Source: Cellulophaga sp. BC115SP | GTDB lineage: Bacteria; Bacteroidota; Bacteroidia; Cytophagales; Spirosomataceae | Assembly (NCBI RefSeq): GCF_009905545.1 | Contig: NZ_JAAALB010000008.1 | Location: 62,001 to 126,000, forward strand | Length of the DNA stretch: 64,000 bases | Direction of reading: 5' to 3' | Shown here: positions 33,783 through 36,798 of the stretch, one piece after another | Layout of the letters: every line of letters begins with the position of its first letter | How positions within the stretch are numbered: the stretch's first letter is position 1 | Program-made: the position numbers and the translations under genes | Notes under the pieces: model-generated | What the model was told of the DNA's origin: nothing | The model's input: the letters and a program-made list of their open reading frames with translations, nothing else | Databases searched by the model: none

Positions 33783-34631
33783 TTATTTATTCAAAATACG
33801 TTTAATATCGTTAGCTTGAGTCAAATAGTCTTTGAATTTGTCGTAACCGTCGGCTAACATCAAACCTTTAAATTTTAATAAGGTATTGATATACTCGTCC
33901 AGTACATCGATGATATTATCTTGATTTTGTCTGAAAATCGGAATCCAAGTATCAGGGTTCGATTTTGCCAAACGTACTGTTGACTCAAAACCAGAACTTG
34001 CTAAGTTAAAGATACTTTCTTCATCTTTTTCCTTTTGCAAAACTGTAGAGGCCAAAGCAAATGAACAAATATGCGAGATATGCGAGATATAGGCAGTATG
34101 CACATCATGTGCAGCCGAGTCAAGATAAGTCAATCGCATTTTTAGTCCCTCGGTGTACATTTTTTCAATCATCTTCACGAGCTCTGGCTTCGAATCTTGT
34201 ACATCACAGAGCACACAAGTTTTATTATCGAACAAATTTCGAATCGCCGCTTCTGGTCCCGAAAACTCAGTACCTGCCATGGGGTGAGTAGCAATGAAAT
34301 TTCCACGATTAGGGTGATTTCTGACAGAATCTACCGCAGGTTTTTTGGTGGAACCTACTTCTATGACTACCTGATTTTCAGAAACATGATTCAAAACTTC
34401 AGGTAAAAGCTTTACCAAAGCATCTACAGGGACAGCCAAGATAATAATGTCTGATTGTTTGATGGCATCATTAAGCAAAGCCACACGGTCGACCAACTGG
34501 AGTTCGAGGGCTTTGATAACGTGTTCGGTTTTGTTATCTACGCCAATAACCGAATCCGCAAACCCACTTTCTTTAAGACTTAAGGCCATTGATCCACCAA
34601 TAAGACCAAGTCCGACTACTGATATATTCAT
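33783..34631 (-). CDS. tyrA: prephenate dehydrogenase
   Basis: A 282-residue enzyme that makes 4-hydroxyphenylpyruvate, the tyrosine precursor, from prephenate. The Rossmann GLGLIGGS lies at residues 7-14, the NAD-binding VVGVDN-like region follows, and ATHPMAGTE (about residue 114) contains the conserved catalytic His. No chorismate mutase or ACT domain is fused. It follows the aminotransferase gene by 75 bp, with the leader attenuator upstream of both. The two together would take prephenate to tyrosine, which matches the Tyr-rich leader peptide. Confidence 0.92.
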   Translation of the reverse strand: MNISVVGLGLIGGSMALSLKESGFADSVIGVDNKTEHVIKALELQLVDRVALLNDAIKQSDIIILAVPVDALVKLLPEVLNHVSENQVVIEVGSTKKPAVDSVRNHPNRGNFIATHPMAGTEFSGPEAAIRNLFDNKTCVLCDVQDSKPELVKMIEKMYTEGLKMRLTYLDSAAHDVHTAYISHISHICSFALASTVLQKEKDEESIFNLASSGFESTVRLAKSNPDTWIPIFRQNQDNIIDVLDEYINTLLKFKGLMLADGYDKFKDYLTQANDIKRILNK

Positions 34632-34706: not shown

Positions 34707-35879
34707 CTAAGAACAGATTCCCTTCGATTGACGAATGCGTTGGATAGCTTGGTCAAACAGAGTGATTTCGGCACATAGCGAGATACGAATATATCTTTCA
34801 CCAGCCGTTCCGAAAATACCTCCTGGGGTAATAAATACTGCCGAGCCCAATAGAATTTCGTCTGAAAGCTCATAGCAATTGGTATATGAATCAGGAATCT
34901 TAGCCCATACAAACATTCCTATTTGTTTTGGGTCATATTTGCAATCCAACAACTCCATAATTTCAAACACCTTGGTTTGACGTTGTCTATAAATCTCGTT
35001 TAAAGAGTCATACCAAGATTGAGGATTTTGGAGTGCCTTTACTGCTGCCATTTGCAATGGTAAAAACATACCAGAGTCCATATTCGATTTGAATCTTAAC
35101 ACATGACTTATTAATTCGGCATTTCCAACTAAAACCCCCATACGCCAGCCAGCCATATTATGTGATTTTGAAAGAGAGTTCAACTCAATCGCCACATCTT
35201 TCATGCCTTCAACCGCCAAAATACTTTGTGGAGAATCATTTAGGATAAAGCTATATGGGTTGTCGTTTACAATCAGGATGTTATGAGCAATCGCAAAATC
35301 TCTGAGTTTTTCGAAAAATGCAGTATTAGCTTGTGCACCCGTTGGCATGTGTGGATAATTGACCCACATCAATTTTACTTTTGACAAATCTCTCTGTGCC
35401 AAAGCATCCAAATCAGGCAACCAGCCATTGTCTTCAGCCAAGTCATAATCTACCACAGTAGCACCTGTTAGGAGCGACGCTGCTCGGTAGGTTGGGTAGC
35501 CAGGGTTGGGTACCAATACCTCGTCGCCAGCTTCCAGATATGCCATCGCAATGTGCATAATACCTTCTTTCGAACCAATCAAAGGCAATACTTCATTAAC
35601 AGGATTGAGTGTTACGCCATAGAATTTTTGATAAAACTGAGCAAAACCTTCACGCAAAGCAGGAATCCCCACATAGCTTTGATAGGCGTGGTGTTTGGGA
35701 TGTGCAGCACTGTCTGTCAATGCGTCGATGGTTTCGACAGACGGTGGCAAATCTGGGCTTCCAATACCTAAATTGAGCACATCAATGCCTGATGCACGCA
35801 TATCTGCTATTTGTTTTAGTTTGGTAGAGAAGTAGTACTCCTGAACCAAGTTCATGCGGGATGCTGGTTTTATGTTCAT
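34707..35879 (-). CDS. class I/II PLP-dependent aminotransferase
   Basis: A 390-residue fold-type I aminotransferase. GIGSPDLPPS (residues 38-47), YVGIPALREGFAQFY, NPGYPTYRA and NSLSKSHNMAGWRMG are visible, the last with the PLP-binding Lys at about K238. Such genes next to tyrA in Bacteroidota are believed to transaminate 4-hydroxyphenylpyruvate or phenylpyruvate, and related LL-diaminopimelate aminotransferases exist, so specificity is uncertain. It is the first gene of the operon, and the attenuator leader with the Tyr codons ends 81 bp before its ATG. This strongly supports tyrosine synthesis as its job. Confidence 0.88.
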   Translation of the reverse strand: MNIKPASRMNLVQEYYFSTKLKQIADMRASGIDVLNLGIGSPDLPPSVETIDALTDSAAHPKHHAYQSYVGIPALREGFAQFYQKFYGVTLNPVNEVLPLIGSKEGIMHIAMAYLEAGDEVLVPNPGYPTYRAASLLTGATVVDYDLAEDNGWLPDLDALAQRDLSKVKLMWVNYPHMPTGAQANTAFFEKLRDFAIAHNILIVNDNPYSFILNDSPQSILAVEGMKDVAIELNSLSKSHNMAGWRMGVLVGNAELISHVLRFKSNMDSGMFLPLQMAAVKALQNPQSWYDSLNEIYRQRQTKVFEIMELLDCKYDPKQIGMFVWAKIPDSYTNCYELSDEILLGSAVFITPGGIFGTAGERYIRISLCAEITLFDQAIQRIRQSKGICS

Positions 35880-35895
35880 TGTTTTACTAGGACAT

Positions 35896-35929
35896 ATTAT
35901 TTAGTAAAAGTTTTTCTTTACTAAATAAT
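35896..35929 (-). promoter_or_regulatory. hairpin between attenuator terminator and aminotransferase start
   Basis: ATTATTTAGTAAA (35896-35908) pairs perfectly with TTTACTAAATAAT (35917-35929). It lies 16 bp before the start codon of the aminotransferase gene on the minus strand. It may affect translation of the gene or be a by-product of AT-rich sequence. Confidence 0.45.
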
Positions 35930-35954: not shown

Positions 35955-35980
35955 AAAAAAGCCGACTCACTGAGTCGGCT
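35955..35980 (-). terminator. attenuator terminator of the tyrosine operon leader
   Basis: On the minus strand AGCCGACTCA is followed by its reverse complement TGAGTCGGCT (35960-35980) and then six T (35955-35960). It lies between the leader ORF and the operon. Its 5' arm also pairs with the antiterminator arm at 36023-36034. Confidence 0.85.
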
Positions 35981-36034
35981 TGTGTATTATTAGTTTTTTG
36001 ATTTTTTCAAATTAAAGTCATAACACAACCGACT
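35973..36034 (-). promoter_or_regulatory. tyrosine attenuator antiterminator
   Basis: On the minus strand AGTCGGTTGTGT (36034-36023), which begins inside the last codons of the leader peptide, pairs with ACACAAGCCGACT (35985-35973) over 12 bp with one bulged G. The second segment overlaps the 5' arm of the terminator, so only one of the two structures can form. A ribosome at the leader stop codon (36035-36033) would cover the first segment and allow termination. Confidence 0.8.
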
Positions 36035-36089
36035 AAGCCTGCAAAGCGTAGTAATAATAAGCACGGTATGTGTTGATTGACTGGTTCAT
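36033..36089 (-). CDS. tyrosine-rich leader peptide (18 codons)
   Basis: The minus strand encodes MNQSINTYRAYYYYALQA then TAG. Five of 18 residues are Tyr, four of them consecutive (codons 11-14, TAT TAT TAC TAC). The ATG lies only about five bases after a consensus -7 box, so the transcript may have almost no 5' UTR before it. The ORF ends exactly where the antiterminator segment begins, as needed for ribosome-mediated attenuation. It is too short for a functional protein; its translation rate would be the signal. Confidence 0.82.
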   Translation of the reverse strand: MNQSINTYRAYYYYALQA

Positions 36090-36094
36090 GACTT

Positions 36095-36126
36095 CAAAGG
36101 TAGTCTGAAAAAAATTATTTGACAAA
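36095..36126 (-). promoter_or_regulatory. promoter of the tyrosine operon leader
   Basis: On the minus strand TTTG (36126-36123), 20-bp spacer, TACCTTTG (36102-36095). This matches the Bacteroidota housekeeping pattern in both elements and in spacing. The start of transcription should fall within a few bases of the leader ATG at 36089. Confidence 0.82.
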
Positions 36127-36190: not shown

Positions 36191-36643
36191 TTAAAGTACG
36201 ATTCGACCTAGGGCATCCCAAATTAAATCCTGCTCGTATCCTTTACTCAGAGCGTAACGAAGCAATTTTTGTTTGACTACTAATGGATTGGTATCTTTAA
36301 TCTCACCTCTTTTTTTGTGAAGAACATCTTCCAACGTTTGAATATATTCATCGGGGTCGATTTCTTTCATGCCCACCTGTAAGCAATAATCGGATACGCC
36401 ACGCATCTTTAGTTCTTGACGAATTTTGAGTCTACCCCATTTTTTGACTCTAAATTTAGACCCTGCGAAAATTTTGGCAAATCGCTCTTCGTTGAGATAG
36501 TTATTCTCAATAAGCCAAACTACTATTTCATCGGCTTCATCACCCCACACGCCCCATTCGTCGAGTCGCTCTTTGACTTCTCGATGGGTTCTTTCCTGAT
36601 ACGCACAGAATCCTGCGGCTTTTTTGAGAATTTCTTTATTCAT
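36191..36643 (-). CDS. recX: RecX family regulatory protein
   Basis: A 150-residue helical protein from the ATG at 36643. It contains ILKKAAGFCAYQERTHREVKERL and IENNYLNEERFAKIFAGSK then WGRLKIRQELKMRGVSD, the three-helix repeats of the RecX family that bind and inhibit RecA filaments. A frame open to 36775 adds 44 residues, but they overlap the nrdA terminator at 36764-36798 and lack RecX character. recA is not in this window. The gene lies downstream of nrdA on the same strand, but behind that terminator, so probably has its own promoter. The Tyr leader lies 102 bp downstream. Confidence 0.82.
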   Translation of the reverse strand: MNKEILKKAAGFCAYQERTHREVKERLDEWGVWGDEADEIVVWLIENNYLNEERFAKIFAGSKFRVKKWGRLKIRQELKMRGVSDYCLQVGMKEIDPDEYIQTLEDVLHKKRGEIKDTNPLVVKQKLLRYALSKGYEQDLIWDALGRIVL

Positions 36644-36763
36644 AGAAATGTAGGTAAGTGTAAGTAGTGATTCAGGATTTAGGCAGTTAGCTATCGGGTA
36701 GTTTAGCATAACATCCTCAATAACATATATGCCTTTTCTTTTGTAACCTTTCAATTTTAACAC

Positions 36764-36798
36764 AAAATCCCTCAATCCATGACAGATTGAGGGATTTT
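36764..36798 (-). terminator. terminator of nrdA
   Basis: AAAATCCCTCAATC (36764-36777) is the reverse complement of GATTGAGGGATTTT (36785-36798), a 14-bp perfect stem with T-runs readable in both directions. It lies 59 bp after the nrdA stop. Confidence 0.85.

Follow-up and report, generated by a model that had tools for sequence, protein, structure and literature searches.

A very probable tyrosine leader-peptide attenuator in front of an aminotransferase-tyrA operon in Flectobacillus and its relatives

The DNA analysed here, referred to as the window, is a stretch of 64,000 nucleotides from a genome that belongs to Flectobacillus; the aminotransferase of F. longus LYT7W is 99% identical to the window protein. 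On the minus strand, recX is followed by a putative attenuator, the gene for a class I/II aminotransferase, and tyrA (Table 1). The initial annotation had described the operon genes as those for a prephenate dehydrogenase and an aminotransferase, acting in the last two steps to tyrosine, and matches to NF006307 and PF00155 agree with this gene content. The best NCBIfam match of the aminotransferase is LL-diaminopimelate aminotransferase, with a score under the cut-off of that profile. Judged by operon and leader, the protein is probably an aromatic (Tyr) aminotransferase.

Table 1 Features of the attenuator and the neighbouring genes in the window
Feature	Positions	Strand	Remarks
recX	36191-36775	-	
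Promoter, sigma-A type, Bacteroidota	36095-36126	-	TTTG 36126-36123, N20, TACCTTTG 36102-36095
Leader peptide ORF MNQSINTYRAYYYYALQA	36033-36089	-	18 codons and TAG (36035-36033), ATG at 36089
Segment 1	36060-36082	-	early leader codons; possible pairing partner of segment 2 (protector hairpin)
Segment 2, antiterminator 5' arm	36020-36034	-	starts within the leader TAG
Segment 3, antiterminator 3' arm	35973-35990	-	overlaps the terminator 5' arm
Intrinsic terminator	35955-35981	-	10-bp stem AAGCCGACTC/GAGTCGGCTT, 3-nt loop, U-run to 35955
AT-rich inverted repeat	35896-35929		ATTATTTAGTAAAG, 5 nt, CTTTTACTAAATAAT
Class I/II aminotransferase	34707-35879	-	Pfam PF00155
tyrA, prephenate dehydrogenase	33783-34631	-	NCBIfam NF006307, 354.5 bits, cut-off 295

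Promoter, leader ORF, stop codon, antiterminator and terminator were all re-read on the minus strand at the positions initially assigned to them. The promoter box is separated by 5 nt from the ATG of a short ORF rich in codons for the amino acid of the operon, with Tyr at codons 8 and 11-14 and no Phe codon. Following TAG, the sequence reads in 5' to 3' direction AGTCGGTTGTGTTAT, which starts within the stop codon, a 29-base spacer, ATAATACACAAGCCGACTC, AGT, GAGTCGGCTT, and the U-run. The intrinsic terminator is therefore located between the leader and the first gene, 75 nt from the end of the U-run to the aminotransferase ATG. The antiterminator pairing involves AGTCGGTTGTGT (36034-36023) and ACACAAGCCGACT (35985-35973). 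This duplex, of -17.2 kcal/mol, has 10 nt in common with the 5' arm of the terminator, by which the two structures exclude each other as had been proposed. The fold of the RNA from 36090 to 35950 beats 200 of 200 dinucleotide shuffles (z -4.39). The inverted repeat located between attenuator and aminotransferase gene has a similar version in L002 and L003, and is absent from L004.

A search of 149 genomes for the aminotransferase revealed 93 with a match at E 1e-110 or better, and 90 of these were read, the 30 nearest loci and 60 more (G071, G081, and G090 were left out). Among the 30 nearest orthologous loci, 27 have a leader rich in Tyr with a terminator behind it. Two of the exceptions, L018 and L021, have no leader, and no tyrA was found beside the gene; the third, L030, carries Phe/Tyr leaders before pheA. 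No Tyr leader was found in the remaining 60 loci; in 40 of these, tyrA is located downstream of an aminotransferase with 47-59% identity. On a longer list, 25 of the best 80 named loci have a Tyr leader, the carriers being Flectobacillus, Arcicella, Pseudarcicella, Siphonobacter, Sandaracinomonas, Aquirufa, and MAGs of Cytophagales/Cytophagaceae; one MAG record with a Tyr leader bears the label Spirosoma fluviale. The Tyr codons appear to drift mostly synonymously: at the four codons that end the Tyr cluster in 12 close sequences, departures from the commonest codon amount to five synonymous changes and one nonsynonymous. Both the Tyr codons and the alternative pairing, on whose conservation the proposal had been made to depend, are kept in relatives.

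Four Tyr codons in a row are not special by themselves, since 64 such sites were counted in the genome versus 92 for a reversed control. Thirty of the 64 were examined as loci for further modules, and none had one. A covariance model of the Flectobacillus/Arcicella form detected a single copy in its own genome (G000) and matched 8 of 59 genomes under stricter filters. A weak second match in G001, a genome of the same genus (L280), was rejected, as it consists of a terminator without a Tyr-rich ORF before it. The search for a matching Rfam leader, which had been recommended initially, gave no match at the gathering score in the window and 12 related loci, with leader and T-box families included.

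Switching was assessed with an RNA that starts past a ribosome stalled at a middle Tyr codon and ends just before the 3' arm of the terminator. In this truncated RNA, the terminator 5' arm pairs with the post-stop segment at P > 0.5 in 34 of 35 distinct sequences. The mean probability is 0.79 versus 0.43 with the stop-to-arm stretch shuffled, and for 13 of the 35 sequences, taken singly, no more than 10 of 200 shuffles do as well. The start of segment 2 falls 0-4 nt from the stop codon's first base in 29 sequences and 6 nt ahead of that base in six (L024-L029), and antiterminator and terminator arms have 6-12 nt in common across the 35. With the ribosome at the stop codon, the terminator reaches P 0.89 or more in all of them. 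Throughout, the predicted antiterminator is therefore incompatible with the terminator and would be covered by a ribosome positioned at the leader stop, with L019 as the one sequence that is not clear, since it fails the truncated-RNA test (P 0.46, shuffles 0.50).

When the full RNA carries a stalled ribosome, the terminator is often still favoured at equilibrium. Its probability ranges from 0.22 to 0.96 in the window, depending on the stalled codon, and in several relatives, e.g. L005, L009, and L011, it is above 0.9 whichever Tyr codon the ribosome stalls at. The switch would therefore have to be kinetic and set by the order of synthesis. It is also synthesis order that decides between the structures in the trp model. 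Because equilibrium folding of the full RNA is ambiguous as proof of switching, the truncated transcript was used instead. Of the ribosome geometry put forward initially, masking at the stop codon was borne out by folding, and release of the antiterminator by stalling was reproduced in the truncated RNA but is ambiguous at full-RNA equilibrium.

In 12 close sequences, the cells of the terminator are paired to 99.2%, with compensatory change in three pairs and a covariation score reached by none of 500 shuffles. The antiterminator cells are paired to 93.1% versus 21.5-45.8% in slid versions, and compensatory change is confined to one pair, equalled by 53 of 500 shuffles. Hence, of the covarying pairing predicted between 36034-36023 and 35985-35973, the pairing itself is kept, but covariation within the close group does not stand out. 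L008 alters three arms jointly (GTCGG/CCGAC/GTCGG to ATCGG/CCGAT/ATCGG), and the paired words vary between lineages (TCGGTTGTGT, GCCGG..GGAA, GAGTAGG, GCCGGTTA) with the partner following. For the protector hairpin between segments 1 and 2, 3 of 300 synonymous recodings of the window pair equally well; the hairpin is thus clear in the window, but since the 5% level was reached in only 6 of the 35 sequences, it is not general.

The near-absence of a 5' UTR, regarded as an oddity at first, recurs in relatives: in 31 of 38 Tyr-leader loci, just 4-5 nt lie between the end of TAnnTTTG and the leader ATG, measured for L024-L028 to the first ATG of ATGATTATG. The exceptions are Siphonobacter with 18-20 nt (five loci), L023 with 24 nt, and L019, which has no box. 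A box was found within 150 nt of 13 of 45 long ORFs of the window (spurious ones included), in no case at 3-6 nt. Among the first Phe/Tyr modules described below, the box is at 4-5 nt in 3 of 55, and 23 of 55 have no exact box within 80 nt. By these counts, leaderless spacing is typical of the Tyr branch apart from the exceptions named. The promoter box of F. psychrophilum occupies -12 to -5 (PMC9723704), which would place the start of Tyr-leader transcripts on the first base of the ATG or on the base preceding it; the window transcript would then start at 36090 or 36089 as a leaderless mRNA. Of the F. psychrophilum mRNAs examined, 5.5% are leaderless (PMC9723704), and 5' UTRs under 10 nt make up 3.7% in B. 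thetaiotaomicron (PMC7366714). The leaderless trpL transcript of Sinorhizobium meliloti likewise starts with the ATG of the leader ORF (PMC7298713). It belongs to an alphaproteobacterial Trp operon and its 5' end has been reported (PMC7298713), whereas that of the window is deduced from the promoter box.

Together, these features very probably constitute a conserved ribosome-mediated (trp-type) transcription attenuator sensing charged tRNA-Tyr before aminotransferase-tyrA. Transcription would begin at the leader AUG or one base before, and the leader would be translated. With plentiful tyrosine, the ribosome would get to the stop codon and cover segment 2, segment 3 and the terminator 3' arm would pair, and transcription would stop short of the aminotransferase gene. 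If charged tRNA-Tyr ran low, the ribosome would stall at codons 8-14, and pairing of segments 2 and 3 would prevent the terminator, so that aminotransferase and tyrA would be transcribed. Since a Tyr-rich frame and two mutually exclusive hairpins precede genes for tyrosine, these genes are very probably made only when translation is short of tyrosine. The initial reading as a tyrosine attenuator is supported by the retention of Tyr codons, stop position, antiterminator, and terminator and by paired words changing together; a response to tyrosine is predicted.

Related leaders are located before pheA-aminotransferase-tyrA operons. Using five or more Phe/Tyr in nine codons with a terminator behind as detector, 206 loci with 192 distinct upstream regions were searched. 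Modules were detected in 100 of the 192 regions versus 2 of 3840 shuffles and 2 of 192 reverse strands. With redundant loci counted, 71 of 92 operons headed by pheA (prephenate dehydratase) have a module, with an F/(F+Y) of 0.59, compared to 38 of 114 aminotransferase-headed operons with 0.07; two modules were detected in 17 pheA-headed loci and in no aminotransferase-headed one. Fourteen Tyr leaders (Siphonobacter and some Aquirufa-type terminators) escape the strict detector and were added by eye; it also overlooks some Phe/Tyr leaders, e.g. in L033. For further comparison, 145 representatives with under 90% identity were used (L116 was dropped because of a misplaced gene start). A Phe+Tyr leader is present in 54 of the 72 pheA-headed representatives, each of the 54 containing both residues, and 18 have no detected leader. 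The 73 aminotransferase-headed representatives comprise 50 without a detected leader and 23 with a leader, all 23 Tyr-dominated, state 'Y' having been assigned to every Tyr-leader locus read by hand, including L023 with two Phe. The residues of the leaders thus fit the content of the operons, and the Tyr form would be the Tyr branch of aromatic leader attenuators, whose pheA-aminotransferase-tyrA members use Phe and Tyr codons.

Alternative pairing was found in all 65 testable Phe/Tyr modules, and for 58 of these no more than 10 of 200 shuffles do as well. The antiterminator arm begins within the last codons of the leader in 38 of the 65, e.g. in L125 and L121 (KAGTLL, KQGTRLQ). As read from these sequences, this is a second architecture, in which the peptide C-terminus would double as an RNA arm. 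Tandem leaders with a terminator between them were observed in 17 of 73 pheA-headed versus 1 of 73 aminotransferase-headed representatives and in none of 2920 shuffles (L030, L031, L113, L115-L117, L120, L121, L125, L129, L137, L144, L151, L161, L163, L170, and L207). The sole aminotransferase-headed call, L006, is a TTG ORF behind the terminator and was taken as spurious. Named tandem cases are from Chitinophaga, Hymenobacter, and Saprospiraceae/Saprospirales; in L120 (Chitinophaga varians), MTTQATFGFFGFYYFWYQE is followed by MSNRHFNTYYFYYFFFAKKQGTRLQ. In the genus of the window, pheA is encoded separately; with about 358-380 aa, it is by its length presumably a chorismate mutase fusion, and no convincing Phe leader was found before it. 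No His leader was seen before hisG in the window genome. A Trp leader, MTTNFKNTAWWWQLTKLG, with a strong terminator is located 202 to 75 nt upstream of a trpE homologue in the same genome (L268, contig C126).

In aminotransferase trees, the Tyr-leader genes all lie on one side of one branch, with a support of 18 in the tree of 145 rows, where L018 is possibly inside, and of 97 in that of 44 rows. Their nearest neighbours are the pheA-headed Saprospiraceae loci L113 and L117 (support 83, not starred). Grouping them with the leader-less aminotransferases of their own family was rejected (p-AU 0.010, for a clade picked after the first tree). The aminotransferases of the Tyr-leader genera are nearer to genes of Saprospiraceae and Chitinophaga than to those of other genera of their own family, a closeness that suggests transfer or old paralogy. 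The simplest reading would be that pheA was lost once and the leader re-tuned from Phe+Tyr codons to Tyr, the direction being presumed; alternatively, transfer between lineages may have occurred. As the association of Tyr leaders with lack of pheA rests on one clade, the pattern linking codons and gene content is strong but represents a single transition. We lean slightly towards one Bacteroidia attenuator lineage re-tuned by codons to operon content, from Phe+Tyr, sometimes in tandem, to Tyr almost alone without pheA, with most Tyr leaders read without a 5' UTR.

The location of the element downstream of recX on the same strand could indicate that the terminator merely ends the transcript from the recX side and that the ORF is accidental. 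This is extremely unlikely, because promoter and Tyr-rich ORF intervene between recX and terminator and are conserved together with the antiterminator; L019 also has the Tyr leader, though its upstream ORF looks unlike RecX by eye. Similarly, it is very doubtful that the leader governs translation of the aminotransferase instead of termination, with the terminator-like hairpin hiding the start region. In Aquirufa-type loci, the end of the U-run and the aminotransferase ATG are indeed just about 5 nt apart, but in the window this distance is far larger (75 nt), and the hairpin is shaped as an intrinsic terminator. For L024-L029 and other Aquirufa-type loci, the closeness of the U-run to the start codon implies that the hairpin might affect translation too.

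Relationship to the Phe/Tyr leaders raises the question of whether Phe, or general aromatic starvation, is sensed as well. The aminotransferases are related to those of Phe/Tyr-leader operons, and one or two Phe codons occur in some leaders, e.g. L008, L023, L025, and L111 (mean 0.42 per leader). Against this, the modules of aminotransferase-headed operons are nearly devoid of Phe in comparison with pheA-headed ones (F/(F+Y) 0.07 versus 0.59) and the window leader lacks Phe altogether, making sensing beyond tyrosine very improbable. An attenuator responding to tyrosine is the preferred explanation.

Well-known proteobacterial attenuators are those with the leader peptides TrpL, HisL, and PheL of E. 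coli (trpL, hisL, pheL). The window element shares with the trp, his, and phe leaders a short ORF rich in the regulated amino acid, a stop codon beside the antiterminator arm, and mutually exclusive antiterminator and intrinsic terminator; it differs in its Tyr codons, in its Bacteroidota-type promoter, and in the lack of an Rfam match at the gathering score. To our knowledge, no tyrosine-sensing leader peptide has been described. The initial annotation knew of none in Bacteroidota, and none appeared among the matches listed for leader peptides and attenuators, in titles and the beginnings of abstracts. Surveys of attenuation, such as those by the groups of Lyubetsky and Vitreschak, may contain part of these findings. 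Until PMC2965389, demonstrated cases of leader peptides were confined to Proteobacteria and Actinobacteria (PMC2965389). A uORF with Phe codons precedes aroF in Acholeplasma (PMC8632094), and the main text of PMC4833913 contains no word starting with 'tyr'. In Flavobacteriaceae (F. psychrophilum), a conserved structured 5' element upstream of pheA and clues to leader peptides ahead of amino-acid operons have been reported (PMC9723704). This element shares the phylum with that of the window, but the section describing it gives no leader sequence, Tyr codons, or Tyr form; the supplement may describe a Phe/Tyr leader (PMC9723704). The pheA side of the Phe/Tyr leaders is at least partly known already, and with that element in print the Tyr leader represents a new variant of classical attenuation.

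The Bacteroidota have been described as a phylum without Shine-Dalgarno sequences (PMC9723704), and for this phylum the leaders provide a large, testable set of attenuators in which operon content and regulatory codons vary together. The Tyr leader suggests that the aminotransferase, despite best profile matches to LL-diaminopimelate aminotransferase, acts on an aromatic substrate, and the tandem attenuators prompt the question of whether Phe and Tyr are sensed in a graded or combined way. If the interpretation is true, tyrosine would join the amino acids sensed by leader peptides.
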